Shown one piece after another: positions 23,250-41,676 of a DNA stretch of 64,000 bases (within the stretch, counting starts at the first letter, position 1; each line of letters starts with the position of its first letter). Made by a program: the position numbers and the translations under genes. The stretch covers positions 186,001-250,000 of the forward strand of contig NZ_VFNI01000003.1 of NCBI RefSeq assembly GCF_006715495.1, written 5' to 3'. Below the pieces are notes generated by a model. The model was not told the DNA's origin, ran no database searches, and saw only the letters and a program-made list of their open reading frames with translations. The DNA is from Herbaspirillum sp. SJZ106 (GTDB lineage: Bacteria; Pseudomonadota; Gammaproteobacteria; Burkholderiales; Burkholderiaceae_D).

Positions 23250-25024
23250 CCCGCATGCCCCCGCGCACCACGCTCTCCGGCGGCCGTGTGGCCGCCTCCA
23301 AGGGGGTGGCGTTTTCTTCCAATCCGATCCTGCAGGTGAAGCTGCCGGCCTGGCGGTCGCGCTTCGTGCTGTTCGTGCTGTTTGTCGCCTTCGCGGCGCT
23401 GGCGGCGCGCGCGCTGTGGCTGCAGGGCGTATCGACCGATTTCCTGCAAAAGCAGGGCGCGTCGCGCTACGCGCGCACGCTGGAGTTGCCGGCCACGCGC
23501 GGCAAGATCACCGACCGCAACGGCCAGGTGCTGGCCTCGTCGGTGCCGGTCAAGGCGATCTGGGCCATTCCCGAAGACGTGCAGGCCGCGCCCAAGGACA
23601 AGCTGCGCGAACTGGCCAGGCTGCTGGAGATGAGCGACGCCGACCTGCGCAAGAAGCTCGATTCCGACCGCAGCTTCGTCTACCTCAAGCGCCAGGTGGA
23701 GCAGGACACGTCCGACAAGATCGTCAAGCTCGGCATTCCCGGCATCGAGACCCGCAAGGAATACAAGCGCTTCTACCCCGAGGGCGAGGTGATGGCGCAC
23801 GTGGTGGGCTTCACCAACATCGAAGACGCCGGCCAGGACGGCATGGAGCTGGCCGCCCAGAAGACGCTGGCCGGCGTGACCGGCAGCCGCCGCGTCATCA
23901 AGGACCGCCTGGGCCGCATCGTGGAGGATATCGAGTCCATCCGCGATCCGCACGACGGCCGCGACCTGACCTTGTCCATCGACAGCAAGATCCAGTACAT
24001 CGCCTTCACCCAACTGAAGGAAGCGGTCGACAAGTTCAAGGCCAAGGCCGGCGGCATCATCGTGGTCGATGCCAAGACCGGAGAAGTGCTGGCATTGGCC
24101 AACATGCCGACCTACAATCCAAATGACCGCTCGGTGCTGACCGGCGCGCAGTTGCGCAACCGCGTCGTCACCGACACCTTCGAGCCGGGCTCGACCCTCA
24201 AGCCGTTCACCGTGGCGCTGGCGCTCGATACCAAGCGCGTCACGCCCTCCACGGTGTTCCAGACCGCGCCCGGTAAGATGACCATCGGCACTGCGACCAT
24301 CGGCGACTCGCATGCCCACGGTCCGCTGACGGTGGCGCAGATCATCGAGAAATCGTCCAACATCGGCACCGCCAAGATCGCGCTGCAAATGCCGCCGGAA
24401 GAGATGTGGGAAATGTTCACCACGGTCGGTTTCGGCCAGCAGCCTAAGTTCGGCTTCCCCGGTGCGGTAGCCGGCCGCGTGCGTCCCTATAAATCCTGGC
24501 GTCCGATCGAACAGGCCACGATGAGCTACGGCCACGGCATTTCGGTGTCGCTGATCCAGCTGGCCCACGCCTACCTGATCTTCGCCCGCAACGGCGACAT
24601 CATCCCGCTGTCGTTTACCAAGGTGAACGATTCGCCGATCGGCCAGCGCGTGATCTCCGAAAACACCGCGCTGCAGATGCGCCGCATGCTGGAAACCGTG
24701 GTCGCCCCCGGCGGCACGGCGCCGCAGGCCCAGGTGCCGGGCTATCGCGTGGGCGGCAAGACCGGCACCGCCTACAAGATCGAAGGCGGCAAGTACGTGC
24801 GCAAGTACGTGGCCTCGTTCACCGGCATTGCGCCCATGTCCGATCCGCGCCTGATTATCTCGGTGATGATCGACGAACCTCAGGGCCAGCACTACGGCGG
24901 CCCGGTGGCAGGCCCGGTGTTCGCCAACGTGGCCGCCAATGCGCTGCGCGCGCTCAATGTGGCGCCGGACTCCAGCGTGACCAACATCATCATCCCCAAA
25001 GAACCGCTTGAGGAGAGCATGTAA
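23246..25024 (+). CDS. ftsI: Septal peptidoglycan transpeptidase FtsI (PBP3)
   Basis: 592 residues. A cytoplasmic start, a membrane helix at about 35-55, then the pedestal domain with TRGKITDRNGQVLASS. The transpeptidase active site has SxxK at EPGSTLKPF (Ser316), SSN at IIEKSSNIG and KTG at about 505-507 (GGKTGTAYK). It crosslinks septal peptidoglycan with FtsW and is a beta-lactam target. It overlaps ftsL, and its TAA shares a base with the ATG of murE. Confidence 0.97.
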   Translation: MTRMPPRTTLSGGRVAASKGVAFSSNPILQVKLPAWRSRFVLFVLFVAFAALAARALWLQGVSTDFLQKQGASRYARTLELPATRGKITDRNGQVLASSVPVKAIWAIPEDVQAAPKDKLRELARLLEMSDADLRKKLDSDRSFVYLKRQVEQDTSDKIVKLGIPGIETRKEYKRFYPEGEVMAHVVGFTNIEDAGQDGMELAAQKTLAGVTGSRRVIKDRLGRIVEDIESIRDPHDGRDLTLSIDSKIQYIAFTQLKEAVDKFKAKAGGIIVVDAKTGEVLALANMPTYNPNDRSVLTGAQLRNRVVTDTFEPGSTLKPFTVALALDTKRVTPSTVFQTAPGKMTIGTATIGDSHAHGPLTVAQIIEKSSNIGTAKIALQMPPEEMWEMFTTVGFGQQPKFGFPGAVAGRVRPYKSWRPIEQATMSYGHGISVSLIQLAHAYLIFARNGDIIPLSFTKVNDSPIGQRVISENTALQMRRMLETVVAPGGTAPQAQVPGYRVGGKTGTAYKIEGGKYVRKYVASFTGIAPMSDPRLIISVMIDEPQGQHYGGPVAGPVFANVAANALRALNVAPDSSVTNIIIPKEPLEESM

Positions 25025-26559
25025 TGGCCCCGCAAGCGCCCGACATCAAGAACATCGTCAACTGGCTGCGCTCGGACGCGGCCATTGCCGCCGATGCGCA
25101 ACTGACCGCGGACTCGCGCCGGGTGGCGCCGGGCGACGTGTTCTTCGCCTACGTGGGCGATGCCGACGGCCGCTCTTATATAGAGGATGCGGTCGAGCGC
25201 GGCGCCGCTGCCGTGGTCTATGAAGCGGCCGGCTTCGCCTGGCCGCAGCATCTCGGCGTGCCGGGCCTGGCGGTCGACGATCTCAAGGCATTGGCCGGCG
25301 ACATCGCCGCCGACTGGTACGGCCATCCGGACCAGGACATGTTCATCGCGGCCGTCACCGGCACCAACGGCAAGACTTCCTGCGCCTGGTGGCTGGGCTC
25401 TGCCTTGTCGCGCCTGCCCGGCGCGGGCCTGGCGGGCGTGGTCGGCACCCTGGGCGTGGGCACCTTCCTCGGCGGCCGCGCCCAGGCGTTCGATGTCACC
25501 GGCTACACCACGCCGGACGCGGTGCTGTTGCAGCGTAATCTGGCGATCCTGGCCAAGGCCAAGGTCGGCGCCCTGGCCATCGAAGCCTCCTCGATCGGCC
25601 TGGCGCAGGGCCGCATGAACGGCATGCACGTGGATGTGGCGCTGTTTACCAATTTCACCCGCGACCATCTCGACTACCACGGCGACATGGCGTCCTATGA
25701 AGCCGCCAAGCGCAAGCTGTTCGAATGGGATGGGCTCAGGCATGCGGTGGTCAACCTCGACGATCCGATGGGCGTGCGCCTGGTGCCACTGGTGCAGGCG
25801 CGCCAGGTTGCGCTGATCGGCTATGCGCTGGAAGACAGCATTCACGGACCGGTCGCGGGGGTTCCTGTGCTGCGCGCCAGCGGCATCCGCAGCAGCCATG
25901 CCGGCACCGTGTTCCAGGTCGATTCGCCATTCGGCAGCGGCCAGGTCAAGACCCAACTGGTGGGGCGATTCAATGTCAGCAATGTGCTGGGCATCATGGG
26001 CGTGTTGCTGGCCAAGGGCCTGGCCTGGGATGCCGCAGTCGCGGCCGCCGGCGCCCTGAGCGCCGCTCCCGGGCGCATGCAGCAGTTCGGCGGGCCGGAT
26101 GTGCCGCTGATCGTGATCGACTACGCACACACGCCCGACGCGCTCGACAAGACCCTGGCCACGTTGCGCCAGGTGGCGATCCAGCGCGGCGGCCAGCTGT
26201 GGTGCGTGTTCGGCTGCGGCGGCGACCGCGATCCGGGCAAGCGCCCGCAGATGGGCCAGATATCCGAGCAGGCCGACCATGTGGTGCTGACCAGCGACAA
26301 CCCGCGCAGCGAGGATCCCAAGGCCATCATCGACCAGATTCGCGCCGGCATCAGCCGTATCGAGCCGGTGATCCTGGAAGACCGCGCCGGCGCCATCCTG
26401 TGGGCGATCCGCCATGCCACCAAGGCCGACGTGGTGCTGCTGGCCGGCAAGGGCCATGAGACCTACCAGGAAATCGCCGGCAAGAAGCTGCCCTTCCTCG
26501 ATGCCGACCATGTCGCGCTGGCGCTGGCTGCGCGCTCGACCATGATGGGGGGCGCATGA
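25024..26559 (+). CDS. murE: UDP-MurNAc-tripeptide synthetase MurE
   Basis: 511 residues. N-terminal substrate domain with TADSRRVAPGDVFFAY, the ATP loop AVTGTNGKTSCAWWLG (about 115-130), central-domain LFTNFTRDHLDYHGDMASYEAAKRKLF with the Lys expected to be carbamylated, and a C-terminal domain with TSDNPRSEDP, the DNPR motif of enzymes that add meso-diaminopimelate. It adds the third amino acid in the cytoplasm, using ATP. Length is normal. Its stop overlaps the ATGATG start of murF. Confidence 0.97.
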   Translation: MAPQAPDIKNIVNWLRSDAAIAADAQLTADSRRVAPGDVFFAYVGDADGRSYIEDAVERGAAAVVYEAAGFAWPQHLGVPGLAVDDLKALAGDIAADWYGHPDQDMFIAAVTGTNGKTSCAWWLGSALSRLPGAGLAGVVGTLGVGTFLGGRAQAFDVTGYTTPDAVLLQRNLAILAKAKVGALAIEASSIGLAQGRMNGMHVDVALFTNFTRDHLDYHGDMASYEAAKRKLFEWDGLRHAVVNLDDPMGVRLVPLVQARQVALIGYALEDSIHGPVAGVPVLRASGIRSSHAGTVFQVDSPFGSGQVKTQLVGRFNVSNVLGIMGVLLAKGLAWDAAVAAAGALSAAPGRMQQFGGPDVPLIVIDYAHTPDALDKTLATLRQVAIQRGGQLWCVFGCGGDRDPGKRPQMGQISEQADHVVLTSDNPRSEDPKAIIDQIRAGISRIEPVILEDRAGAILWAIRHATKADVVLLAGKGHETYQEIAGKKLPFLDADHVALALAARSTMMGGA

Positions 26560-28025
26560 TGCGGTTCGCATTCAATCAGATGCTGGAGTGGATCCGCGCC
26601 GCCGAGGCGGCCGCTTCCGCGCACCATGTGCCGGCAGTGGCCAATGCCCCGGCCGGCGCGCTGGAACTCAACGACGTGGTCACCGACAGCCGCGCGGTCA
26701 AGCCCGGCAACGTGTTCGTCGCGCTGCGCGGCGAGCGTTTCGACGCCCATGATTTCCTCGATGCCGTGGTCGCGCAAGGCGCCGCCGCCGTGGTGGTCGA
26801 GCGCGTGCCGCCGGGTTTGTCGGTGCCGGCCATCGTGGTTCCGGATACGCGCGCGGCGCTGGGCCAGATCGCCCACGGCTGGCGTTCCTTGTATAAGGTG
26901 CCGGTGATCGGCGTGACCGGCAGCAACGGCAAGACCACGGTCAAGGAAATGATCGCCTCCATCCTGGCCGCCGCCTTTGGCGAGGACGGCTACCTGGCTA
27001 CGCGCGGCAACTTCAACAACGAGGTCGGCGTGCCGCTGACGCTGTTCCGCCTGGCGCCGCCGCATCGCGCGGCCGTCATCGAGATGGGGATGAACCATCC
27101 GGGCGAGATCGCCGTCTTGTCGCGCATCGCGCAACCGACGCTGGGCCTGGTCAACAACGCCCAGCGCGAGCACCAGGAATTCATGGCCACGGTCGAGGCC
27201 GTGGCGCGCGAGAACGGCGCGGTGATCCGCCATTTGCCGGCCGACGGCGTGGCGGTGTTCCCGGCCGACGACGATTTCACGCCGCTGTGGCGCGAAGAAG
27301 CCGGCGCCCGTCGCGTGCTGACCTTCGGCTTGAGCCAGACCGCCGATGTCGGCGCCGTCTACCAACCCAGCGCCTTCGGCAGCACGCTGCAGGTGACGGT
27401 CAAGGACATCGCGGCGGCGCCGGCGCACTTCAAGGTGGAGCTGGCCGCGGTCGGCGAACACAATGTGCGCAACGCGCTGGCGGCGGCGGCTTGCGCGCTG
27501 GGTGCGGGCATCCCGGTGGATGCCGTGGCGCGCGGGCTGGAAAGCTTCGCTCCCGTCAACGGGCGCCTGCAGCGCAAGACTGCCAAAAGCGGCGCGCTGG
27601 TGATCGACGACACCTACAACGCCAATCCGGATTCGGTGCGCGCCGCCATCGATGTGCTGGCCGGCATCGACGGGCCGCGCGTGCTGGTGCTGGGCGACAT
27701 GGGCGAGGTCGGCGACCAGGGGCCGCAATTCCACCGCGAGATCGGCGCCTATGCGAAGAGCCGCGGCATCGCCCGCCTGTTCGGCCTGGGCGAACTGATG
27801 CGCCACGCGGTGCAGGCATATCAGGAGACACCGGGCGAAGCGACGGCGCAGGCCGTGCACTACGCTGACATCGATGCGCTCAATACTGCGGTCGATCAAG
27901 CCGCGCTGCAAGGACTGGGCGCGAGCATTTTGGTAAAAGGTTCACGCTTCATGAAGATGGAGCGAGTTGTACAGCATCTGGTCAACGTTGAATCCGTCAC
28001 GCAACATCAACAGGAGGCCCATTAG
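26556..28025 (+). CDS. murF: UDP-MurNAc-pentapeptide synthetase MurF
   Basis: 489 residues. N-terminal domain with [30 protein letters not shown] loop [14 protein letters not shown] (about 121-134), [11 protein letters not shown], and [18 protein letters not shown] in the C-terminal domain. It adds D-Ala-D-Ala to UDP-MurNAc-tripeptide. The start may be either Met of ATGATG at 26556. It ends two bases before the mraY start. Confidence 0.97.
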
Positions 28026-28026
28026 C

Positions 28027-29196
28027 ATGCTGGTCTGGCTCGCTCAGAATTTTCAACAGGATTTCGGCTTCTTGCGCCTGTTCAGTTTCATTACTTTCCG
28101 CGCGGTGTTCGCTACGCTGACGGCCTTGCTGATCGGCATGATCGCCGGTCCGGCGGTGATCCGCATGTTGACGCGCATGAAGGTCGGCCAGGCGGTGCGC
28201 ACCGATGGCCCGCAGACCCACCTGATCAAGTCCGGCACCCCGACCATGGGCGGCGTGCTGATCCTGATCGGCATCGGCGTCTCGACCCTGTTGTGGGCCG
28301 ACCTGTCCAACCGTTTCGTCTGGATCGTGCTGATCGTCACGCTTGGCTTCGGCGCCATCGGCTGGGTCGACGACTACCGCAAGGTGGTGTACCGCGACCC
28401 GCAAGGCATGCGCTCGCGCGAAAAGTATTTCTGGCAATCGCTGATCGGCCTGGTGGCGGCGTTCTACCTGGCGTTCTCGGTGTCCGAAGTGAGCAACATG
28501 AAGGTGCTCGAACTGTTCGTGGCCTGGGTGCAGTCCGGCTTCAGCCTGGACCTGCCGCCCAAGGCCGACCTGATTGTGCCGTTCTTCAAGAGCGTGAGCT
28601 ATCCGCTGGGCGTGTGGGGCTTCATCGCGCTGACCTATTTCGTCATCGTCGGCACCAGCAACGCGGTCAACCTGACCGACGGCCTGGATGGCCTGGCCAT
28701 CATGCCGACCGTGCTGGTGGGCGCCGCGCTGGGCTTGTTCGCCTACCTGACCGGCAGCGCCAACTACGCCAAATACCTGTTCATCCCGCACATCCCCGGC
28801 GCCGGCGAATTGCTGATCTTCTGCGGCGCCATGGGCGGCGCCGGCCTGGCCTTCCTCTGGTACAACGCTTACCCGGCGCAGGTGTTCATGGGCGACGTCG
28901 GCGCGCTGGCGCTGGGCGGCGCGCTGGGCACCATTGCCGTGATCGTGCGCCAGGAGATCGTGCTGTTCATCATGGGCGGCATCTTCGTGGTGGAAACGCT
29001 GTCGGTGATGATCCAGGTGGCCTATTTCAAGTACACCAAGAAACGTTTCGGCGCCGGCCGCCGCGTGTTGCTGATGGCGCCGTTGCACCATCACTACGAA
29101 CAGAAGGGCTGGAAGGAAACCCAGGTGGTGGTGCGGTTCTGGATCATCACCATGATGCTGGTGCTGGTGGGCCTGTCGACGCTGAAGCTGCGTTGA
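28027..29196 (+). CDS. mraY: Phospho-MurNAc-pentapeptide translocase MraY
   Basis: 389 residues from ATG 28027; AGGAGG about ten bases upstream lies within the end of murF. A polytopic membrane protein of about ten helices. Catalytic motifs: [14 protein letters not shown] with the Asp pair (about 110-123), [17 protein letters not shown], and the C-terminal [12 protein letters not shown] with the triple His. It makes lipid I on the inner membrane from UDP-MurNAc-pentapeptide. The 86 bp that follow hold a small GGGCGC/GCGCCC hairpin (29211-29225) before murD. Confidence 0.97.
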
Positions 29197-29282
29197 GTGG
29201 AGTGAAGATGGGGCGCACGGCGCCCTTGGCGGTTCAATGAAGTGATCGATGAGATCGAAGTGAAAGAAGTGGGCAGCAAACG

Positions 29283-31334
29283 ATGAATTACTCGGGCAAA
29301 CACGTACTGGTGCTCGGACTCGGCGAGTCCGGCCTGGCCATGGCGCGGTGGCTGGTCTACTGCGGCGCCGGCGTGCGCGTGGCCGATACGCGCGGGGAGG
29401 CGGCATTGGCCGAACGCCTGGCCGCCCTGCGCGCCGACGCGCCCGATGCCCAAGCCGTGCTGGGCCGCCCGTTGTCGCCCGAACTGCTGGACGGCGTGGA
29501 TTTCGTCGCCGTCAGCCCCGGCCTGGCGCCGAACGGCGAACTGGCGCCGCTGATGCCGGCCATCGCCGAGCGCGGCCTGCCGTTGTGGGGCGAGATCGAA
29601 TTGTTCGCCCAGGCGCTGGCCGCCTTGCGCGAAGAAACACTGTATAAGCCCAAGGTGCTGGCCATCACCGGCACCAACGGTAAGACCACCGTGACCAGCC
29701 TGACCGGCATGCTGTGCCAGCGCGCCGGCCTGTCGGTGCGGGTGGCGGGCAATATCAGCCCGGCCGCGCTGGACGTGCTGCGCGAAGCGGTGATCAAGGA
29801 CAAGGTATTCCTGGCCGAACTGGCTGAGCAGGATGCCATCGCCGCCGCCGAAGCGGCACGGCAGGCCGAGTTGGCCGAGGTGGCTGCTCAGGAAGAGGCA
29901 GAGGCTGCCGAAGCTGCCCGGCGCAAGCAGGCCGAGGCGCGCATCGAAGACGCTGCGGCCAGCTCGGCCCCGGCTCCGGCTCCGGCTTCAGAAGCAACTC
30001 CGGAAGCAGCGTCGCCGGCCGCCAACGATGCGCAAATGGACATGGACATGCTGCCGCAGGATGGGCAGTCGGATGCGCCTGAACCGGCTGCCGCACAAGC
30101 GCTGCACGAAGAACAGGATACGCCCGCCACCGAAATCGGCGCGGGCGTCGAGCACCTGTCGTCGGAAGCCGCCAATGCCGGACAATCCGCAGACGCCGGC
30201 TGGCAAACAGATGCCGGCGGCAATGCGGCCGAGGCGATGAACCTGGACGATTTCATGGCGGTGTCGCGCACGGCCGAAGAGCATGCGCTGGCCGAAGTGC
30301 CGCCGCCTCCGCCGCCGGAACCGACCTACCGCGGCTCGATGCCGCAGGCCTGGGTGCTGGAGCTGTCTAGCTTCCAGCTGCATACCACGCACAGCCTGCA
30401 GGCCGATGCCGCCACCGTGCTCAACCTCACGCAAGACCATCTCGACTGGCACGGCAGCATGCAGGCCTATGCCGCCGACAAGGCGCGCATCTTCGGTGCG
30501 CACACCGTGCGCGTGCTCAACCGCGACGATGCGCTGGTGATGCAGATGGCCGATGCCGGCGCGCCGGTTTCTTCATTTGGGCTGGATGAGCCGTCCGCGC
30601 CGGACAGCTTCGGGCTGATCAACGACAACGGCATGCTGTGGCTGGCCAATGCCTTCGTGCATGAGGACGACGAGCAGCCGGAAGGCAAGCGCCGCCGCAA
30701 GCAAAAGGAACTGGCGCCGCCGCCGGTGACGCTCAAGCGCCTGATGCCGGCCGACGCGCTCAAGATCCGCGGCGCGCACAATGCGATGAACGCGCTGGCC
30801 GCGCTGGCCCTGTGCCGCGCCGTCGATTTGCCGATGGCTCCGCTGTTGCATGGCTTGCGCGACTACACGGGCGAACCGCATCGGGTGGAACTGGTGGCGG
30901 TGGTGCAGGAGGTCGAGTATTACGACGACAGCAAGGGCACCAACGTTGGCGCCACGGTGGCGGCCTTGAACGGGCTGGGCCTGGGCGGCCGCCCCAACCG
31001 CATCCTGCTGATCGCCGGCGGCGACGGCAAGGGCCAGGATTTCTCGCCGCTGGCGCTGCCGGTGGAGAAATACGGCCGCGCGGTGTTCCTGATCGGGCGC
31101 GACGGCCCGGCCGTGCGCGCGGCGCTGGCCGACACCGGCGTCGAATTGATCGATTGCGCGACCCTGGAAGAGGCTGTGCAAAAGGCGGGCGATATGGCGC
31201 GCGCGGGCGAGATCGTCCTGCTCTCGCCGGCCTGCGCCAGCCTGGATATGTTCCGCAACTACGCGCACCGGGCCGAAGTCTTCGTGGACTCGGTGCGTGA
31301 ACTGGCGCTGTCGCGCGGCGAGGTGATCGCATGA
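29283..31334 (+). CDS. murD: MurD (UDP-MurNAc-L-Ala:D-Glu ligase) with a large low-complexity insertion
   Basis: 683 residues, where MurD is usually 430-500. N-terminal [18 protein letters not shown] loop [14 protein letters not shown] (about 126-139), then [14 protein letters not shown] (about 153-166). An insertion of about 180 residues (171-350) follows: an Ala/Glu helix-like stretch, an acidic Ala/Pro/Gln part and six prolines. The enzyme resumes with [18 protein letters not shown], the Lys of [21 protein letters not shown], and [11 protein letters not shown] and [12 protein letters not shown] in the C-terminal domain. A second short insertion (about 461-480) is Lys/Arg-rich. All catalytic blocks are intact, so activity is expected. 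The frame is open throughout, so this is not a frameshift artefact. The stop overlaps ftsW by ATGA. Confidence 0.95.
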
Positions 31335-32605
31335 AGCTCGGACTGTCGTCACTGCGTGGATTGCTGGGCAGCGTGAAGGAAGCTGCGCCGGCTGCCGCCG
31401 GCCGCCTCAAGGGCGGCGCGGGCGGCATCGGCGTACGTGGCGGCAGTGTCGGCTTCGAGCAGCGCTCGCGCATGATGGAGTACGACCAGCCGCTGATCTG
31501 GGTAGTGCTGCTGCTGATGCTGTTCGGCATGGTGATGGTGTATTCGGCCTCGGTGGCGCTGCCCGATTCGCCCAAGTACGCCGCCTATTCGAATTACCAC
31601 TTCCTGGTGCGCCAGGCGATCTTCATCGTGATCTCGCTGGTGGCCGGCGCGCTGGCGTTCCGCGTGCGCATCGAGACCTGGCAGAAATGGGCGCCGTACC
31701 TGTTCGCCGGCACCCTGATCCTGCTGGTGCTGGTGCTGGTTCCGGGCGTGGGCAAGGGCGTCAACGGCGCCAAGCGCTGGTTGTCGTTCAAGGTGTTCAA
31801 CTTGCAGCCATCCGAACTGATGAAGTTGTTCATCGTGCTGTATGCGGCCGATTACACGGTGCGCAAGCAGGCGGTGATGCACAAGCTGGTCAAGGGTTTC
31901 GTGCCGATGGCCGCCGCCGTCGGTTTCGTCGGCCTGCTGCTGCTGCTGGAGCCCGACCTGGGCGCCTTCGGCGTGATCGTCTGCATCGCCATGGGCATCC
32001 TGTTTTTGGGCGGCATCAACGGCGTTTGGTTCGGCGGCATCAGCGCCATGCTGGGCGGCGTGTTTACCCTGGTGATCGTGACTTCGCCGTGGCGGCGCGA
32101 GCGCATCTTCGCCTACCTCAATCCGTGGGAAGAAGAAAACGCGCTGGGCAAGGCTTACCAGCTGTCGCATTCGCTGATCGCCTTCGGCCGCGGCGAGCTG
32201 TTTGGCGTGGGCCTGGGCAGCAGCGTGGAGAAACTGCATTACCTGCCGGAAGCGCATACCGACTTCCTGCTGGCGGTGATCGGCGAGGAACTCGGTTTCG
32301 CCGGCGTGCTGGTGGTGGTGCTGCTGTTCTACTGGCTGGTCAAGCATGCCTTCGAGATCGGCCGCCAGGCCATCGCGCTGGACCTGACGTTCGCCGGCCT
32401 GGTGGCCAAGGGCATCGGCATCTGGCTGGGCGTGCAGGCTTTCATCAACATGGGCGTGAACCTGGGCCTGTTGCCGACCAAGGGCCTGACATTGCCGCTG
32501 ATGAGTTACGGCGGTTCGGGCGTGCTGCTGAACTGCGTGGGCCTGGCGATCCTGTTGCGCATCGATTACGAGAACCGGGTGCTGATGCGGGGAGGGCGCT
32601 TATGA
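31331..32605 (+). CDS. ftsW: Septal peptidoglycan glycosyltransferase FtsW
   Basis: 424 residues; SEDS family with about ten membrane helices. The N-terminal cytoplasmic tail is long (about 50 residues, Gly-rich). Signature [26 protein letters not shown] C-terminal motif is present (about 376-397), as is [26 protein letters not shown] (about 139-164). It polymerises lipid II at the septum with FtsI. Starts by ATGA overlap with murD and overlaps murG. Confidence 0.97.
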
Positions 32606-33684
32606 GCACACCCCGCAGACTGCTGATCATGGCGGCCGGCACCGGCGGCCATATCTTCCCGGGACTGGCGATCGCCGACACCATGCGCGCGCGCGGCTGG
32701 CAGGTGAGCTGGCTGGGCACCTCGCACGGCATGGAGCGCGACCTGGTGCCGCGCCACGGCGTCGAGATGGACACCATCGTGTTCGCCGGCCTGCGCGGCA
32801 AGGGGCTGATGCATACGGTCAAGGGCGCGTGGCGCATGGCGGCCAGCTTCTTCAGCTGCTTCGCCATCCTCGGCCGCCGCCGTCCGGACGTGGTGCTGGG
32901 CATGGGCGGTTATGTGACGGTGCCGGGCGGCGCCATGGCGCGCCTGCGCGGCAAGCCGCTGGTGCTGGTCAATGCCGATGCGGCGCTGCTGCTGTCGAAC
33001 AAGACGCTTACGCCCCTGGCCGACCGCGTGCTGTTTGGCTTCCCGGCCGACTTCGGCCGCGCCGCCGGCAAGGCCGAGGTCACCGGCAACCCGGTGCGCA
33101 AGGAAATCATCGCGCTGCCGCGGCCGGCCGAGCGTTACGCCAGCCACAGCGGCCCGCTGAAGATCCTGGTGGTGGGCGGCAGCCTGGGCGCCAAGGTGTT
33201 GAACGACAACGTGCCGGCTGCGCTGGCCAAGTTGCCGCCGGAGCAGCGTCCGCAGGTCACGCACCAGTCGGGCAAGCAGCATATCGCCGCTTTGCGTGCC
33301 GCGTATGAGCAGGCCGGGGTGCGGGCCGAAGTGGTCGACTTCATCGACGACATGCCGCGCCGCTATGCCGAGGCCGACCTGGTGATCTGCCGCGCCGGCG
33401 CCATCACGGTGTCGGAACTGACGGCGGCCGGCGTGGCGAGCGTGCTGGTGCCGCTGGCGGTGTCGACCACCTCGCACCAGATCGACAACGCCAAATGGAT
33501 GGCGCAGAACCGCGCGGCGATTCACCTGCCGCAACGCGAACTCACGGCCGACGCGCTGGCGGGTTTGCTGCAGAAACTGGACCGCGCTGCATGCCATGAA
33601 ATGGCGCAGGCGGCGTACGAACAAGGCCGGCGCGACGCCAACGAGGCGATCGCGCGCGTGCTGGAAGGGCTGGTAACACCATGA
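32602..33684 (+). CDS. murG: UDP-GlcNAc:lipid I N-acetylglucosaminyltransferase MurG
   Basis: 360 residues from ATG 32602, overlapping the ftsW stop and preceded by GGGGAGGG. The glycine-rich [16 protein letters not shown] (about 11-26), [15 protein letters not shown] and [24 protein letters not shown] are MurG motifs. It is peripheral on the inner membrane and converts lipid I to lipid II. Its TGA lies in an ATGA with the ATG at 33681, which opens the short MurC-like frame and not the full murC. Confidence 0.97.
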
Positions 33685-33785
33685 AGCATCGCGTCAAGAA
33701 TATTCACTTTGTCGGCATCGGTGCTGAGCCGCGCGGCCGCGCGGCGCTTTTTAGTTTTGGGCATAGCCGGTCCGCCAGCGAGTAA
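33681..33785 (+). pseudogene. Short frame repeating the MurC N-terminus (truncated duplicate or leader peptide)
   Basis: 34 residues. The first 14 ([14 protein letters not shown]) are identical to the start of MurC at 33791, but nine of the 42 bases differ, all synonymously. After that the frame diverges ([20 protein letters not shown]) and stops at TAA, five bases before the real murC ATG. Its ATG overlaps the murG stop as ATGA, the position where murC would normally begin. Inside it lies an 18-bp perfect palindrome followed by a T-run. It could be a scar of a 5' duplication or a translated leader controlling murC; the sequence alone does not decide. Confidence 0.7.
33728..33758 (+). terminator. 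Terminator-like hairpin between murG and murC (possible attenuator)
   Basis: GCCGCGCGGCCGCGCGGC (33728-33745) is a perfect palindrome that folds to a 7-bp G/C stem with a GGCC loop. GC, TTTTT, AG and TTTT follow. It sits inside the short translated frame, so ribosomes coming from murG could prevent it folding. Confidence 0.5.
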
Positions 33786-33790
33786 AGAAC

Positions 33791-35215
33791 ATGAAACATA
33801 GAGTCAAAAATATCCATTTCGTAGGCATCGGCGGATCCGGCATGAGCGGCATCGCCGAAGTCATGCTCAACCTTGGCTACGGCGTGTCCGGCTCCGATCT
33901 GGGCAGCAATGCCGCGACCCAGCGCCTGGCGCAACTGGGCGCCAGCATCCGCTATGGCCACGCGGCCGACAACATCGACGGCGCCGACGCCATCGTCACC
34001 TCCACCGCCGTCAAGGGCGACAACCCGGAAGTGCTGGCCGCGCGCAAGAAACACATCCCCATCGTCCCGCGCGCGGTGATGCTGGGCGAACTGATGCGCC
34101 TGAAGAAGGGCATCGCCATCGCCGGCACCCACGGCAAGACCACCACCACCAGCCTGGTGGCCAGCGTGCTGGCGCAGGGCGGTCTGGACCCGACCTTCGT
34201 CATCGGCGGCCGGCTGACCTCGGCCGGCGCCAACGCCAAGCTGGGCACCGGCGAATTCATCGTGGCCGAGGCCGACGAGTCGGATGCCTCGTTCCTGAAC
34301 CTGACGCCGGTGATCGAGGTGATCACCAACATCGACGCCGACCACATGGAGACCTACAACCATGATTTCGCGCGCCTGAAGCAGGCCTTTGTCGAGTTCA
34401 CCCAGCGCCTGCCGTTCTACGGCGTCGCCGTGCTGTGCCTGGACGATGCGCACGTGCGCGAGATCATGCCGATGGTGTCCAAGCCGATCCTGACTTATGG
34501 CTTCCATGAAGATGCCGACGTGCGCGCCATCGATGCCCGCGCGGTCGAAGGTCACATGGAATTCACGGTGGTCCAGGACGGCTACGCGCCGATGCAGGTG
34601 AGCCTGAACCAGCCCGGCATGCACAACGTGCAGAACGCCTGCGCGGCCATCGCCATCGCGCGCGAGCTGGATGTGGACGACGCCGCCACGCAAAAGGCGC
34701 TGACCGAATTCAACGGCGTCGGGCGCCGCTTCACCCGCTACGGCGAGGTGCCGCTGTTCGATGCCGAGGGCAAGCCGGCCGGCCATTTCACCCTGGTCGA
34801 CGATTACGGCCACCACCCGGTCGAGACCGCCGCCACGATTGCCGCCGCGCGCGGCGCGTATCCCGGCCGCCGGCTGGTGCTGGCGTTCCAGCCGCACCGC
34901 TACACCCGTACGCGCGACCTGTTCGAGGATTTCGTCAAGGTGCTGTCGCAGCCCGACGTGCTGGTATTGGCCGAAGTCTACGCGGCCGGCGAAGCGCCCA
35001 TCGTGGCGGCCGACGGCCGTTCGCTGGCGCATGCCTTGCGCGCGGCCGGCAAGGTCGAGCCGGTATTCGTCGACGACATCGCCGACATGCCCGACACCAT
35101 CAGGAATGTGGTGCGCGACGGCGACGTGGTAATGACCATGGGCGCCGGTTCGATTTCCGCGGTACCTGGCCGCCTGACGGCAACGGCAACTGAAAAGAGC
35201 GAGGCAAGCGCATGA
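33791..35215 (+). CDS. murC: UDP-N-acetylmuramate:L-alanine ligase MurC
   Basis: 474 residues from ATG 33791, preceded by TAAAGAAC. N-terminal [18 protein letters not shown] (about 8-25), ATP loop [18 protein letters not shown] (about 109-126), [22 protein letters not shown], the C-terminal [15 protein letters not shown] and [16 protein letters not shown]. It attaches L-Ala to UDP-MurNAc, the first step of the stem peptide. The first codons (AAA, AGA, AAA, GTA) are A/T-rich and unlike the rest of the gene. It overlaps ddlB by ATGA. Confidence 0.97.
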
Positions 35216-36213
35216 TCGACCAGGCCACCATCAAGGGCTTCGGCCGCGTCGGCGTACTGTTCGGCGGCCGTTCGGCCGAGCGTGAAGTGTCGAAGATGTC
35301 CGGCAGCGGCGTGCTGCAGGCGCTACTGAGCCGCGGCGTGGACGCCCATCCGTTCGACCCGGCCGAGCGCAGCCTGGGCGCGCTGGAGGCGGAGAAGTTC
35401 GACCGCGTCTTCATCGCGCTGCACGGCCGCTATGGCGAGGACGGCACGATCCAGGGCGCGCTGGAGCAGATCGGCCTGCCTTACACCGGCCCTGGCGTGA
35501 TGGCGTCGTCGATCGCCATGGACAAGGTGATGACCAAGCGCATCTGGCTGGGGCATGGCTTGCCGACGCCGCGCTTCGCTGTGCTGGACAAGGACACGCC
35601 GCGTGAAGTGCTGCGCACCGTGCCCGATGAGCTGGGTCTGCCGCTGATGCTGAAGGCGCCGCATGAGGGCTCGACCATCGGCATCGCCAAGGTCAACGGC
35701 TATTCCGACATGCAGTCGGGTTTCGAGATGTGCGCCAGATACGATGAGGTGGTGCTGGCCGAGGAGTTCATCCGCGGCCGCGAGCTGACGGTGCCGGTGA
35801 TCGGCACCGGCCGCAACGCGCGCGCCTTGCCGGTGATCGAGATTCGCGCGCCGGACGGCAATTACGACTACCAGCACAAATACTTCACCGACGACACCAA
35901 GTATCTGTGCCCGGCGCCGCTGGACGAAGCGCTGACCCGCCGCCTGCAGGAGCTGGCGGTGCAGGCCTTCCATGCGCTGGGTTGCCGCGGCTGGAGCCGG
36001 GTCGACTTCATGCTGCGCAAAAAGGACGGCCAGGCCGAGCCGTACCTGCTGGAAATCAATACTTCACCCGGCATGACCGGCCATTCGCTGGTGCCGATGG
36101 CGGCCAAGGCGGTCGGCCTGAGCTATGAGGATTTGTGCTGCGAGATCTTGCAGCTGGCGGCGCTCGACATGACGCCCTCCAAGGACTGGACGCCGCAGGC
36201 GGACGGCCACTGA
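35212..36213 (+). CDS. ddlB: D-alanine:D-alanine ligase
   Basis: 333 residues. ATP-grasp enzyme: [21 protein letters not shown] (about 12-32), [58 protein letters not shown], and the metal-binding [24 protein letters not shown] near the C-terminus. It makes the D-Ala-D-Ala used by MurF and is cytoplasmic. Translation is coupled to murC by ATGA; ftsQ starts 24 bp later. Confidence 0.97.
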
Positions 36214-36237
36214 GGACGGATCGGAGAGCGCTGAACA

Positions 36238-37008
36238 ATGTGGCAAGACGTCAAGATGCTCAATGCGGCCAGCAGCGCGCTGCTGGCGCTGGTGGTGCTG
36301 GCCTTGCTGGCGTCGGGCCTGTGGTGGGTGGCGCAGCGGCCGATGTTTACGCTGCACACCATCCGCATCGAGAGCGCCAGCGAGTTGCCGCTGGAGAAGG
36401 TGAATGCGTTGACGGTACGGGCCACGGCGCTGCCGCGGATCCACGGCAACTTCTTCACCACCGACTTGTCGGCGGTGCGCGCGGCGTTCGAGGCGGTGCC
36501 CTGGGTGCGCCGCGCGATGGTCCGGCGCGAATGGCCGGACCGGCTGGTGGTGAAGATCGAGGAACACAAGGTCCTGGGTACCTGGGGCGAAGATGGCAGG
36601 TTGCTGTCGCAGAAGGGCGATGTCTTTACCGCCAACCTGGCGGAAGCCGAGGATGACGGCGACCTGATGGAATTCGAAGGGCCGGACGGCAGCGAGAAGC
36701 AGGTGGTGGCGCGGTTGGCGCAGTTCCGCCAGTGGTTCGCGCCGATCAGGCTGGAACCGGAGGCATTGCACCTGTCCAACCGCTATGCCTGGACGGTGCG
36801 GATGGACAACGGCATGACGGTGGAACTGGGACGCGACCAGGGCGAGGCGGTGTTGAAGGAGCGCATCGACCGGCTGGTGGCGGTGTATCCGCAGTTGATG
36901 GAAAGGTTGCAGGGCAAGATCGAAAGCGTCGACATGCGCTATCCCAACGGGATGGCGCTCAAGGCGGATGGAACGGTGCTGGCGGCATTGAACGGAAAGA
37001 AAAAATAA
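36238..37008 (+). CDS. ftsQ: Cell division protein FtsQ
   Basis: 256 residues from ATG 36238 with GGAGAG upstream. One membrane helix (about 11-32), then the POTRA domain beginning FTLHTIRIESASELPLEKVNAL (about 37-58), the VPWVRRAMVRREWPDRLVVKIEEHKVLGTWG block typical of FtsQ, and the beta domain. It recruits FtsL/FtsB and regulates septal synthesis from the periplasmic side. It ends 10 bp before ftsA. Confidence 0.95.
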   Translation: MWQDVKMLNAASSALLALVVLALLASGLWWVAQRPMFTLHTIRIESASELPLEKVNALTVRATALPRIHGNFFTTDLSAVRAAFEAVPWVRRAMVRREWPDRLVVKIEEHKVLGTWGEDGRLLSQKGDVFTANLAEAEDDGDLMEFEGPDGSEKQVVARLAQFRQWFAPIRLEPEALHLSNRYAWTVRMDNGMTVELGRDQGEAVLKERIDRLVAVYPQLMERLQGKIESVDMRYPNGMALKADGTVLAALNGKKK

Positions 37009-37018
37009 GCGGAACGAT

Positions 37019-38251
37019 ATGACAAAAGACGCAAAGAACTTGATCGTCGGCCTCGACATCGGCACCTCGAAAGTGGTGGCGGTGGTGGCCGAGGTGCTGG
37101 CCGACGGCCGGCATGAGGTGATCGGCCTGGGCCAGTCCGAATCCAAGGGACTGAAGAAGGGCGTGGTCGTCAATATCGAAGCCACGGTCGAGTCGATCCA
37201 GCGCGCGCTCGAAGAGGCCGAACTAATGGCCGACTGCAAGATCAGAAACGTTTATACCGGCATCGCCGGCAGCCATATCCGCAGCTTCAATTCGAGCGGC
37301 ATGGTGGCGATCAAGGACAAGGAGGTGACGGCGGCCGACGTCTCGCGCGTGATCGAAACCGCCAAGGCCGTCAACATCCCGACCGACCAGCAGCTGCTGC
37401 ACACGGTGCCGCAGGAGTTCATCGTCGACAACCAGGAAGACGTGCGCGAGCCGATCGGCATGAGCGGCATCCGCCTGGAGGTGAAGGTGCACATCGTCAC
37501 CGGCGCGGTCTCGGCGGTGCAGAACATCGTCAAGTGCGTGCGCCGCTGCGGCCTGGAAGTGTCGGACCTGATCCTGCAGCCGATGGCCTCGGCCGACGCC
37601 GTGCTGACCACCGACGAGCGCGAACTGGGCGTGGTGCTGGTCGACATCGGCGGCGGCACCACCGACGTGGCGGTGTTTACCGAAGGCGCGATCCGCCATA
37701 CCGCCGTGATTCCGATCGCCGGCGACCAGATCACCAACGACATCGCGATGGCGCTGCGCACGCCGACGCTGGAAGCCGAGGAAATCAAGCTGCGCTACGG
37801 CGTGGCCAAGCAGATCCTGGTCGATCCGAACAATACGCTGGAAGTGCCCGGCCTGGGCGACCGCAATCCGCGCACGCTGTCGCACCAGGCGCTGGCGGCG
37901 GTGATCGAGCCGCGCGTCGAAGAGCTGTTCGCGCTGGTGCACCAGGTGGTGCGCGAGTCCGGCTACGAGGAAGTGCTGTCCTCGGGCATCGTGCTCACCG
38001 GCGGTTCGGCGATGATGCCGGGCATGACCGAACTGGCCGAAGACATCTTCCTCAAGCCGGCGCGCCTGGGCACGCCGGAATACAGCGGCCAGCTGGCCGA
38101 CGTGGTGCGCAGCCCGCGCTACTCGACCGTGCTGGGCCTGCTGCAGGAAGCCAAGAAGCAATACCTGCGCGGCTACATCGTGACGCGCCAGGAGGGTTCG
38201 GTGAAGGCGGTTTGGCAGCGCATGAAGGAATGGTTCCTCGGCAATTTCTGA
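37019..38251 (+). CDS. ftsA: Cell division protein FtsA
   Basis: 410 residues. Actin-fold ATPase: phosphate-1 loop VGLDIGTSKVVAVVAE (about 9-24), SHIRSFNSSGMVAIKD in the 1C domain, VLVDIGGGTTDVAVF (about 204-218) and GIVLTGGSAMMPGM. The C-terminal amphipathic helix (VKAVWQRMKEWFLGNF) is the membrane anchor that ties FtsZ to the inner membrane. A gap of 267 bp with an A/T-rich stretch (about 38360-38420) lies before ftsZ and could carry an extra ftsZ promoter, though no clear -35/-10 pair was found. Confidence 0.97.
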   Translation: MTKDAKNLIVGLDIGTSKVVAVVAEVLADGRHEVIGLGQSESKGLKKGVVVNIEATVESIQRALEEAELMADCKIRNVYTGIAGSHIRSFNSSGMVAIKDKEVTAADVSRVIETAKAVNIPTDQQLLHTVPQEFIVDNQEDVREPIGMSGIRLEVKVHIVTGAVSAVQNIVKCVRRCGLEVSDLILQPMASADAVLTTDERELGVVLVDIGGGTTDVAVFTEGAIRHTAVIPIAGDQITNDIAMALRTPTLEAEEIKLRYGVAKQILVDPNNTLEVPGLGDRNPRTLSHQALAAVIEPRVEELFALVHQVVRESGYEEVLSSGIVLTGGSAMMPGMTELAEDIFLKPARLGTPEYSGQLADVVRSPRYSTVLGLLQEAKKQYLRGYIVTRQEGSVKAVWQRMKEWFLGNF

Positions 38252-38518
38252 GGCGGCATTCCCAAGATGATTCAGGATGTAAAAGGTTGGGCGGCAAATG
38301 GGTTTTGACAGCAAAGTCAACGGCAGTACGGTTCAGGGAGTTTAGGTCTTCATCGCAGTAGCAGGAGTTGGAAACAAACATTGCAGCATCGGTATTTTGA
38401 TTTTGTTTTTTTTGGATGTTGAGTTTTGGACGGACGCGCAGTTTTCAGTTGCTAGTCGTCACACCGCGTGATGCCTATCAACTGCCAGCTGCAGATACAC
38501 ATATTTTAAGGAGTCATC

Positions 38519-39703
38519 ATGGAAATCGATATGGTCGACAATGCGACGCTCGGTACGATCATCAAGGTCGTCGGCGTCGGTGGCGCTGGCGGCAACGCTG
38601 TGCAGCATATGATCAACAAGGGGGTGTCGGGCGTGGAGTTCATCGCGGCCAACACCGATGCGCAAGCACTCAAGCAGTCCAAGGCGCATAACGTGATCCA
38701 GATCGGCGAAACCGGCCTGGGCGCCGGCATGCAGCCGGACGTCGGTCGCCGTCTGGCCGAAGACACCCGTTCGCGCATTGAAGACGCGCTGCGCGGCGCG
38801 CACATGGTCTTCATCGCCGCCGGCATGGGTGGCGGCACCGGCACCGGCGCCGCTCCCGTGGTGGCGCAGGTGGCCAAGCAGCAGGGCGCGCTGACGGTGG
38901 CCGTGGTCTCCAAGCCGTTCTCGTACGAAGGCCAGAAGTGCATGGACATCGCCGACGCCGGCCTGGAAGAGCTGTCCCAGCACGTCGACTCGCTGATCAT
39001 CATCCTCAATGAAAAGCTGGAAGAGATCTACGAGGACGACAGCATGATCGAATGGCTGTCCCACGCCGACGACGTGTTGAACAACGCGGTCGCCGGGATT
39101 GCCGAAATCATCAATGTGCCGGGCCACATCAACGTCGACTTCAACGACGTCAAGACCATCATGGGCGAGCAGGGCAAGGCCATGATGGGCACCGCGACCG
39201 CTGCCGGCGTCGACCGTGCGCGCGTGGCGGCCGAGCAGGCGGTGGCCTCGCCGCTGCTGGACGGCATCGACCTGTCGGGCGCACGCGGCGTGCTGGTCAA
39301 CGTGACCGCAAGCCGTAGCCTGAAGGGCAAGGAAATCAAGGAAGTGATGGCGACCGTGCGCGCTTTCGCCGCTCCCGACGCATCGATCGCCCAGGGCATC
39401 GCCTATGACGACATGATGGGCGACGAGATCCGCGTGACCGTGGTGGCGACCGGCCTGGGCCGTGCACGCAAGACGGTGCAGCTGGTGCAGACCCCGGTGA
39501 TGCGTACCGGTACCCACAACGAGCCGATGATGGCCGCCACCGGCATGATGCAAGGCGCCGCGCAACCTGCGGCGACGTTCGGCGGCCTGAAGGCGCCGGC
39601 GGTATGGCGTCGCGAGTCGGCTTCCGACACCGTGCGCGCGCTGGAGAAGAACGGCATGGAAACCTACGACATTCCGGCGTTCCTGCGCAAGCAGGCGGAC
39701 TGA
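38519..39703 (+). CDS. ftsZ: Cell division GTPase FtsZ
   Basis: 394 residues from ATG 38519 with AAGGAG upstream. Tubulin signature GGGTGTG lies at about 107-113; KVVGVGGAGGNAVQHM and the NADDVLNNAV-like helix match FtsZ. A variable linker leads to the conserved C-terminal peptide (YDIPAFLRKQAD), the docking site for FtsA and other partners such as ZapD (encoded at 51.3-52.1 kb). It polymerises with GTP into the division ring. A structured repeat lies just after the stop. Confidence 0.98.
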   Translation: MEIDMVDNATLGTIIKVVGVGGAGGNAVQHMINKGVSGVEFIAANTDAQALKQSKAHNVIQIGETGLGAGMQPDVGRRLAEDTRSRIEDALRGAHMVFIAAGMGGGTGTGAAPVVAQVAKQQGALTVAVVSKPFSYEGQKCMDIADAGLEELSQHVDSLIIILNEKLEEIYEDDSMIEWLSHADDVLNNAVAGIAEIINVPGHINVDFNDVKTIMGEQGKAMMGTATAAGVDRARVAAEQAVASPLLDGIDLSGARGVLVNVTASRSLKGKEIKEVMATVRAFAAPDASIAQGIAYDDMMGDEIRVTVVATGLGRARKTVQLVQTPVMRTGTHNEPMMAATGMMQGAAQPAATFGGLKAPAVWRRESASDTVRALEKNGMETYDIPAFLRKQAD

Positions 39704-39723
39704 TCGCAGGTTGTCCGGCCGGT

Positions 39724-39887
39724 AAGAACCTGTTCAAGGTGACGGCGAGAGTTGGGCAGATGTCATTTCAGGATGGCATGCAAGGCGCAAAACGCAGCCG
39801 GGCTGGTGGCCCGGCGAGGCCTTGCAACGCCGCAGGCCGCCTGAAAGGGCATTTGGACAAGCTCGTCGCCACCTTGAACAGGTTCTA
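39724..39887 (+). repeat. Structured intergenic repeat, copy 1 (between ftsZ and the peroxiredoxin gene)
   Basis: Long imperfect inverted repeat. The outer arms at 39725-39749 and 39862-39886 match at 23 of 25 bases. They enclose a 58-nt core (39778-39835) whose apex is GCCGGGC-TGGTG-GCCCGGC. The core recurs in reverse orientation at 49225-49281, where the apical stem is changed on both sides. It encodes no plausible protein. Confidence 0.85.
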
Positions 39888-39900
39888 TAGGGCATACTAG

Positions 39901-39928
39901 CGCCGCGCCTTGAGCGCGGCGTTTTTTT
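39901..39928 (+). terminator. Intrinsic terminator before the peroxiredoxin gene
   Basis: CGCCGCGC, short loop, GCGCGGCG (39901-39921), then seven T. Together with the repeat just upstream it separates the division genes from the peroxiredoxin. Confidence 0.7.
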
Positions 39929-39972
39929 GCCCGCGCGGGCCATCCAGACACACAACCAGACAAGGAAACATC

Positions 39973-40476
39973 ATGACCATCAAGATCGGCGACCGCCTGC
40001 CGGAAGGCAACCTGGCTGAATTTATCGAGACCGAAACCGAAGGCTGTTCGCTCGGCCCCAATACCTTCAAGGTGTCGGACCTGGTCAAGGGCAAGAAGAT
40101 CGCGCTGTTCGCGCTGCCCGGCGCCTTTACCCCGACCTGTTCGGCCAAGCACGTGCCGGGCTACATCGCCCACGCCGCGCAGTTCAAGGCCAAGGGCGTC
40201 GACGAAATCTGGTGCCTGTCGGTCAACGACCCGTTCGTCATGGGCGCCTGGGGCCGCGAGCAAAAGGCGACCGGCATCGTGCGCATGCTGGGCGACGGCA
40301 GCGCCATCTTCACCAAGGCGCTGGGCATGGTGTTCGACCTGACCGAAAAGGGCATGGGCATCCGCTCGCAGCGCTACTCGATGCTGATCGAGGATGGCGT
40401 GGTCAAGCAACTGAACCTGGAAGCGCCGGGCAAGTTCGAGGTTTCCAACGCGGAAACCCTGCTGGGCCAACTGTAA
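39973..40476 (+). CDS. Peroxiredoxin (Prx5-type, AhpC/TSA family)
   Basis: 167 residues from ATG 39973 (AAGGAAAC upstream). The peroxidatic Cys lies in [17 protein letters not shown] (about residue 50), and a second Cys is in [17 protein letters not shown]. Length and the SVNDPFVM block match the Prx5/hybrid redoxin group. It reduces hydroperoxides in the cytoplasm using glutathione or thioredoxin; the reductant is not deducible. A short CGCCGCGC/GCGCGGCG hairpin with TTTTTTT (39901-39927) lies just upstream and may terminate transcription from ftsZ. Confidence 0.93.
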
Positions 40477-40600
40477 GCTTCAGGGCAACTGGCCGTTCCT
40501 GCTTGCGCGGGAACGGCCGGATTTGTTGCCGGGAGCCACAAGTCGCTTCCCGCTGACCCCGATTTGCAACATCCTGCAGGCCCGGCCCCGTCGCCTTGGC

Positions 40601-40606
40601 TATAAT
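40601..40606 (+). promoter_or_regulatory. Perfect -10 hexamer six bases before the lpxC start
   Basis: TATAAT, then GCAGGG, then ATG. Transcription would start at or next to the A of the start codon, giving a leaderless mRNA. No good -35 lies 16-18 bp upstream, and there is no usual Shine-Dalgarno for this ATG. Confidence 0.5.
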
Positions 40607-40612
40607 GCAGGG

Positions 40613-41548
40613 ATGTTGAAACAGCGCACAATCAAGAATCTGGTCCAGACCGTCGGCGTCGGGCTCCACTCGGGTACCAAGGTCGAGCTGACCCTGCGTC
40701 CGGCCGCGCCGGATACCGGCATCATCTTCCGCCGCATCGACCTCGATCCGGTGGTCGAGCTGCCGATGAGCGCAACCGGGGTGGGCGATACGCGCATGGC
40801 ATCGACCCTGACCAAGGATGGCGCCAAGGTATCCACCGTCGAACATCTGCTGTCGGCCTGCGCCGGCCTGGGCATCGACAACCTTTACATCGACCTGACC
40901 GCGGAAGAAATCCCGATCATGGACGGTTCGGCCTCTTCCTTCGTGTTCCTGCTGCAGCAGGCCGGCTTGCAGGAACAGGGTGCGGCCAAGAAATTCATCC
41001 GCGTGAAGAAACCTGTCGAAGTGCGCGAAGGCACGGGCGACAAGGAAAAATGGGCGCGCCTTGAGCCCTACGACGGTTTCCGCCTGAAGTTCTTCATCGA
41101 GTTCAACCACCCCGCAGTGGACGGCACCGGCCAGATGGCCGAAGTCGATTTCGGCATCGATTCCTATGTGAAGGAAATCGCCCGCGCGCGCACCTTCGGT
41201 TTCATGCAGGATGTCGAAACCTTGCGCGGCATGGGCCTGGCGCGCGGCGGCTCGTTCGAGAACGCGATCGTGATGGACGAATACCGCATCCTCAACGCCG
41301 ACGGTTTGCGTTATGACAACGAATTCGTGCGCCACAAGATCCTGGACGCCATCGGCGACCTCTACCTCATCGGCCATCCGCTCCTGGCCAGCTACGATGC
41401 CCACAAATCGGGCCATGGCCTGAACAACCAGTTGCTGCGCGAGCTGCTCAGGCATCCCGACGCCTATGAAGTGGTGACCTTCGATTCGCTCGACGATGCG
41501 CCGCAGACCTATGTGATGCAGGCCCGGCAGGAATGGGCGCTGAACTGA
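40613..41548 (+). CDS. lpxC: UDP-3-O-acyl-N-acetylglucosamine deacetylase
   Basis: 311 residues from ATG 40613, giving [21 protein letters not shown]. Zinc ligands are visible: H in [18 protein letters not shown] (about residue 78), and H and D in [17 protein letters not shown]. The VGVGLHSG and [14 protein letters not shown] blocks are typical. It is the committed step of lipid A synthesis in the cytoplasm, and the usual right-hand neighbour of the dcw cluster in proteobacteria. Expression probably comes from its own promoter. Confidence 0.97.
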
Positions 41549-41676
41549 TTGGGCCGGCGTCCCGGAACGGCAGGATGTTTCGCGGCGCCTTTCCCAAGGC
41601 GTAAATTTTTTACAAGAAAAAGCGCCAGGCGGGTTTTCTAACCGGAAACAACCCCGCTTTCCCTTCCTTGTTCCTC

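Follow-up and report, generated by a model that had tools for sequence, protein, structure and literature searches.

A candidate cis-regulatory leader carrying a copy of the murC start between murG and murC in some Oxalobacteraceae

The segment that lies between murG and murC in Herbaspirillum sp. SJZ106 is, on balance, probably an old, family-restricted cis-regulatory leader of murC, which would couple the translation of murC to that of murG through RNA structure and which, as part of this reading, would have been made from a tandem copy of the murC 5' end placed around a hairpin-bearing spacer. Comparison among related genomes supports an open short frame, covariation in the hairpin and in an arm of the spacer, a close spacing of stop and start, and a signal of vertical descent. 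The segment was analysed in a stretch of 64,000 nucleotides of contig NZ_VFNI01000003.1 (the window, whose genome is designated G000), and positions are numbered within it.

Architecture of the murG–murC junction

MurC performs the first step of the peptidoglycan peptide stem, and its gene precedes ddl, ftsQ and ftsA. The gene order in the window is murD, ftsW, murG, the segment (33681–33790), murC, ddl, ftsQ and ftsA; the NCBIfam names of murG, murC, murD, ftsW, ddl and ftsA were borne out, and ftsQ fell below its cut-off. The closest named murC, the best among the 80 matches listed, is that of Herbaspirillum robiniae (97%). The features of the junction are as follows, with the start of murG taken from its overlap with ftsW and from the start of the TIGR01133 match:

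32602–33684, + strand: murG (TIGR01133), ending in a stop that overlaps the short-frame ATG
33681–33785, + strand: leader frame of 34 codons and TAA, open in 20 of 20 complete units
33681–33722, + strand: copy 1 of murC codons 1–14, from the comparison of both copies
33728–33745, + strand: hairpin HP1, arms 33728–33734 and 33739–33745, loop GGCC
33746–33758, + strand: GC and then the T-rich tail of HP1, TTTTTAGTTTT, which itself occupies 33748–33758
33766–33776, + strand: spacer arm GCCGGTCCGCC, complementary to murC codons 14–17
33777–33790, + strand: AGCGAGTAAAGAAC, end of the leader frame and the stretch just 5' of the murC start
33791–35215, + strand: murC (TIGR01082)
33791–33832, + strand: copy 2, the true first 14 murC codons, fixed among unit-bearing Herbaspirillum genomes
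33830–33841, + strand: GGCGGATCCGGC, partner of the spacer arm with one bulged T, from the pairing analysis

The initial annotation is correct to the base. An ATG at 33681, which shares bases with the murG stop as ATGA, starts a 34-codon frame closed by TAA, and the first 14 residues of the leader equal those of MurC, the 42-base copies (33681–33722 and 33791–33832) having nine differences, all synonymous. GCCGCGCGGCCGCGCGGC (33728–33745) is a perfect palindrome of 18 bases, behind which come GC and TTTTTAGTTTT, and the leader stop does end five bases upstream of the murC ATG. The A/T-richness ascribed to the murC start likewise holds, with a GC content of 0.33 over nucleotides 1–36 compared with a mean of 0.44 (range 0.33–0.53) for 25 murC starts from this genus that lack the element. 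Points absent from that annotation are the stem that covaries with murC codons 14–17, the tandem units, the age of the unit and its spread through the family.

Elsewhere in the cluster, the murD frame (29283–31334, 683 amino acids) matches TIGR01087 in two stretches separated by a long low-complexity insert rich in Ala, Glu and Pro. In Noviherbaspirillum galbum and an Oxalobacteraceae MAG (L098 and L086), an unrelated, longer murG–murC intergenic sequence stands directly before murC.

Distribution and inheritance of the unit

The unit consists of a copy of murC codons 1–12 or 1–14, a 7-bp hairpin, a spacer and the true murC ATG. Of the 392 Oxalobacteraceae genomes sampled, 19 were read as carrying it; these belong to six genera and always have it at murG–murC. 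The 392 genomes are a sample of a larger set from this family, and the search comprised a DNA search of 61 genomes, 80 named murC loci and a covariance model, R1, run over all 392. Since R1 contains the murC start, it matches murC in 378 of the 392 genomes, and the unit was recognised by reading the best R1 matches; most absences were judged by model score, which may overlook decayed units. The bearers are G000, G010 (LeCh32-8), G001 (RV1423), G004 (a MAG labelled Duganella), G006 (H. lusitanum P6-12), G082, G250, G079, G355, G076 and nine genomes of genus g29; by genus, they make up 5 of 34 in g1, 9 of 21 in g29, 2 of 13 in g47, 1 of 43 in g56 and one genome each in g44 and g50. The 373 genomes without a recognised unit mean that it is dispensable. 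Absence from close relatives and frameshifts in the short frame, which had been named beforehand as marks of a neutral scar, gave a mixed picture: 29 of 34 genomes of the same genus lack the segment (25 checked by script and 4 by model score only), and none of the bearers shows a frame-closing frameshift.

A second model, R2, covering the spacer, gave one match over 74 further named loci (L064, which is G250 again), and across 399 genomes of the order no unit was recognised outside the family. The order-wide matches were the known G000 and G061 together with 20 weak ones in 19 further genomes; ten of the weak matches were read and set aside, having no murC context and no flanking repeat of at least 14 bases, and two, from genus g70, look like ordinary terminators. 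A dispersed mobile or palindromic element was also considered and rejected: in the 14 bearing genomes searched, the hairpin pattern has two matches with two mismatches away from murC (G006:C792 and G000:C2) and others with three, and a search of the segment against its own genome gave nothing below E 0.3 except the site itself (0.026 for the palindrome on the other strand).

The distance from ATG to ATG is 110 in 9 of the 20 complete units, 122 in five and 103–125 in the remainder. G076 and G174 carry two units in tandem, and so seemingly does G061, where the second is inferred across a contig break. In G293 (L200), the murC start is fused in frame to a unit remnant, MKHKVKHIHFVGQVHFVGIGG, and this N-terminal MurC extension looks like what is left of a deleted unit. 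Some assemblies end within the unit: that of G061 (L161 / L131) breaks within the hairpin or array, and in G006 (L041 / L125) a contig end splits the unit inside the hairpin, with a misplaced murC 3' piece before the hairpin that is probably an assembly artefact.

Among 13 units, spacer distances rise with murC-body distances (Mantel Spearman r 0.71, a value that 3 of 5000 permutations reach). When presence is mapped on a murC tree of 103 distinct rows, at least 11 changes are needed, eight of which are forced by well supported branches, compared with a mean of 13.3 for shuffled labels (15 of 500 shuffles as low as 11). Both results fit an old unit that is mainly vertical and often lost; it was perhaps lost by deletion between its direct repeats, and it may also have been gained by recombination between relatives.

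Hairpin, leader frame and long-range stem

HP1 is paired in 91 of 91 cells across 13 units, with double changes at four of its seven pairs; its percentage paired and its covariation score were each reached by 0 of 500 shuffles, and 261 of 500 matched it in further pair types, a measure on which it is unexceptional. Over 20 units, 140 of 140 cells are paired (shuffle maximum 131 in 2000), a figure that placement by best pairing favours. The ten bases that follow HP1 hold 50 T among 110 positions in 11 lineages, compared with 21.2 (sd 3.7) in shuffles of the remaining spacer, none of which reached the observed count in 5000 trials, and a run of at least five T is found in only 3 of 20 units (G000, G010 and G271, five or six long). 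The significance of hairpin and terminator comes from the relatives only and not from the window sequence alone. Within the window, a terminator scan of 25000–42000 returned 13 terminator-like sites against 12.5 in shuffles, which is not above chance, the fold energy of 33660–33850 is ordinary (z = 0.10), and 33500–34000 contains no Rfam family above the gathering threshold (best symR, 21.1 bits against 61). The built-in terminator is the weak point of the initial annotation, given T-rich tracts behind the hairpins but few runs of five or more T; it is a plausible part of the unit, yet not the best conserved one.

The frame that begins in copy 1 is open through the spacer, with no stop in any of the 20 complete units, whereas the other two frames, counted over the spacer minus its last 9 bases, contain 8 and 22 stops, spread over 4 and 11 units respectively. 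Lineages whose copy stops short at codon 12, so that a different frame runs through the hairpin, keep it open as well. By dinucleotide shuffling, the product probability is about 0.002 if the 11 less related units are treated as independent. The first base of the leader stop is at −8, −4, +1 or +8 from the murC ATG in all 20 complete units. Over the 20 units, copy 1 differs from the next copy by 69 synonymous and 8 nonsynonymous codons, the latter confined to six units, and without constraint 0.82 of single changes would be nonsynonymous. The suggestion of selection on the short peptide is favoured by this low nonsynonymous count, part of which is constraint that belongs to MurC, whose side is constrained anyway; it does not extend past the MurC-like start, where the peptide is not conserved among units. 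The leader of the window is a short open frame running through a hairpin, as in leader-peptide attenuators; its peptide matched no NCBIfam family, and inspection of its 34 residues revealed no run of regulatory codons.

The 3' half of the spacer is complementary to murC codons 14–17 (33766–33776 with 33830–33841 in the window) and covaries with those codons. The arm paired with its own partner gives −430.6 kcal/mol in 14 units (permuted partners −389.6, sd 8.9), −341.5 kcal/mol in 11 lineages (permuted −307.9, sd 7.4) and −458.7 in 15 lineages (permuted −418.2, sd 9.6), with 0 of 20000 permutations reaching the observed value in each case, although these permutation values are not probabilities because the units are related. 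In the arm alignment, 87% of 154 cells are paired and 10 cells have double changes, neither of which, nor the covariation score, was reached in 500 shuffles, and on two of the five covariation measures the arm does not stand out, with 83 and 251 of 500 shuffles doing as well. Serine codon 16 offers the clearest case, as all four genomes with AGC carry C in the arm, and the ten with TCN carry the pairing G in seven and A in three. Folds that include 75 nt of murC are expected to form at least 9.9 arm:murC pairs in 13 of 14 units (0.1 in G271); the predicted stem encloses the murC start and its ribosome-binding region and does not cover the start, positions −12 to +20 being unpaired with a probability of 0.58–0.78.

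The arm is eroded in part of one genus, and in G271, G288 and G174b the match is gone or neutral, without preference for its own partner. In single genomes the arm is unremarkable, since across 19 genomes 0–28% of the other sites nearby reach the same pairing strength, and a control with synonymous recoding gave values of at most 0.04 in just 3 of 14 units, the recoded murC pairing as well in 11 of 14. An origin of the spacer as a degenerate murG tail was tried and rejected, as in 9 of 11 units its local alignment does not rise above the background (fraction 0.12–0.77), with lower but inconsistent values in G001 (0.047) and G271 (0 of 192).

Across G000, G010, G001 and G004, whose murC bodies diverge by 0.09–0.18, none of 36 bases differs at the true murC start, while copy 1 differs by 2–8; element-free pairs at divergences of 0.08–0.17 have a mean of 3.8–6.3 differences in 42 bases, with minima of 0–1. 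As far as pairs that are not independent allow, this suggests that the RNA of the real murC start is under constraint in genomes with the unit. In the folds predicted for several units (33788–33826 in the window), the murC start codon is weakly paired with codons 9–10 (GAAC-AUG with CAU-UUC), which do not vary in copy 2 among the Herbaspirillum bearers.

Proposed mechanism, alternatives and significance

From this layout we infer that the leader is translated, that ribosomes reinitiate, and which way and how strongly expression would change. Ribosomes that finish murG would restart at copy 1 (at the overlapping ATGA in the window), translate the leader through HP1 and the spacer arm, stop beside the true murC ATG and restart there, and during this passage neither HP1 nor the arm:murC stem could form. 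If the leader were untranslated, HP1 with its T-rich tail would favour release of the transcript, and the arm would pair with murC codons 14–17, closing the murC start region into a loop; both structures would lower uncoupled expression of murC and probably also that of ddl, ftsQ and ftsA downstream. The translated leader of the initial annotation is retained here for its open frame abutting both neighbours, its conserved hairpin and its T-rich tail, and not for a working terminator.

Transcription attenuation proper, the proposal of the initial annotation, in which HP1 and the T-tract form an intrinsic terminator held open by ribosomes on the leader and the arm:murC pairing is incidental, is unlikely but the strongest of the alternatives. 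It would account for a GC-rich hairpin kept in 20 of 20 units, for the T enrichment behind it (50 of 110 against 21.2) and for the T-run of five or six in the window, G010 and G271, but such runs of at least five are found in 3 of 20 units only, the terminator scan of the window is at chance level, and both the covariation of the arm and the fixed murC start are left unexplained. It is rather improbable that the unit is a DNA-level feature without regulatory function, in which template switching would have created the direct and inverted repeats, and slippage together with hairpin-templated correction would maintain their similarity. The layout of direct repeat, hairpin, inverted copy and direct repeat is what such a process would leave, as are the tandem units of G076, G061 and G174, the in-frame remnant of G293 and the 36-nt identity between copies in G079, G061 and G293; however, it does not predict a frame open in 20 of 20 units with stops beside the ATG, and a useless unit should disappear by deletion between its repeats, yet this one persists in six genera.

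That persistence also speaks against a neutral duplication scar, to which we give very little credence, even though 373 of 392 genomes have no recognised unit and copy 1 differs from the next copy in amino acids in 6 of 20 units. Three signals oppose it: the open short frame, the paired hairpin with its compensatory changes and, as weaker evidence, the covarying arm. Least probable of all is the footprint of a site-specific mobile element with the murC 5' end as attachment site. The constant site, the scattered presence, the duplicated target and the 11 changes on the murC tree (eight of them forced by well supported branches) would suit it, but in the 14 bearing genomes the hairpin pattern with 0–1 mismatches is found only at murC, no match was obtained in viral contigs (exact 31-base pattern) or in phages or plasmids (blastn of the segment), and spacer divergence tracks murC divergence, with 3 of 5000 permutations as high.

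Leader-peptide attenuators of the trp type place a short translated frame and a hairpin with a T-rich tail before a structural gene. The candidate murC leader shares the short frame, the hairpin and the T-rich tail, and it differs from them in having no run of one regulatory codon in the window, in its position inside an operon and in its copy of the gene's start. The mgtQ frame of Salmonella, an 8-codon ORF between mgtC and mgtB, is likewise a small intra-operon ORF overlapped by stem-loops, and its translation controls the next gene; it is no copy of the mgtB start, its inhibitory stem covers the RBS and its alternative stems were shown by mutation, whereas the murC stem is predicted from sequence, pairs with coding sequence and encloses the start (PMC8092293). 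Translational coupling by RNA unfolding or reinitiation similarly involves an adjoining stop and start (ATGA or a few bases apart), with upstream translation opening structure at the downstream start, and the murC case differs by an extra leader ORF with its own hairpin between genes that are adjacent in most relatives (PMC12548453). UpsM, in the dcw cluster of Rhodobacter, is also a family-restricted, terminator-bearing leader in a division and cell wall cluster, but it is an sRNA-producing 5' UTR located where the cluster begins, and not a leader ORF at murG–murC (PMC5089854). In a limited search of open-access literature, no system was found whose leader copies the start of the controlled gene, and nothing was found on translational coupling of murG and murC or on the unit.

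If the reading as a coupling leader is right, the genomes with zero, one or two units, with intact or eroded arms, and the bearing and lacking sister species would form a natural series for the role of RNA structure in coupling and for how a regulatory ORF can arise from a gene's own start. A conserved leader at murC would show how levels of a cell wall enzyme are tied to upstream translation in these bacteria. More tentatively, and with doubt outweighing confidence, murC may have made its own regulatory leader by copying its start in front of itself around a hairpin and an inverted copy of the next codons, so that the result is translated and acts as a clamp on the coding region; such a module could expand into tandem arrays, disappear through deletion between its repeats or fuse back into the protein, and would thus tune an essential cell wall and division operon over evolution.
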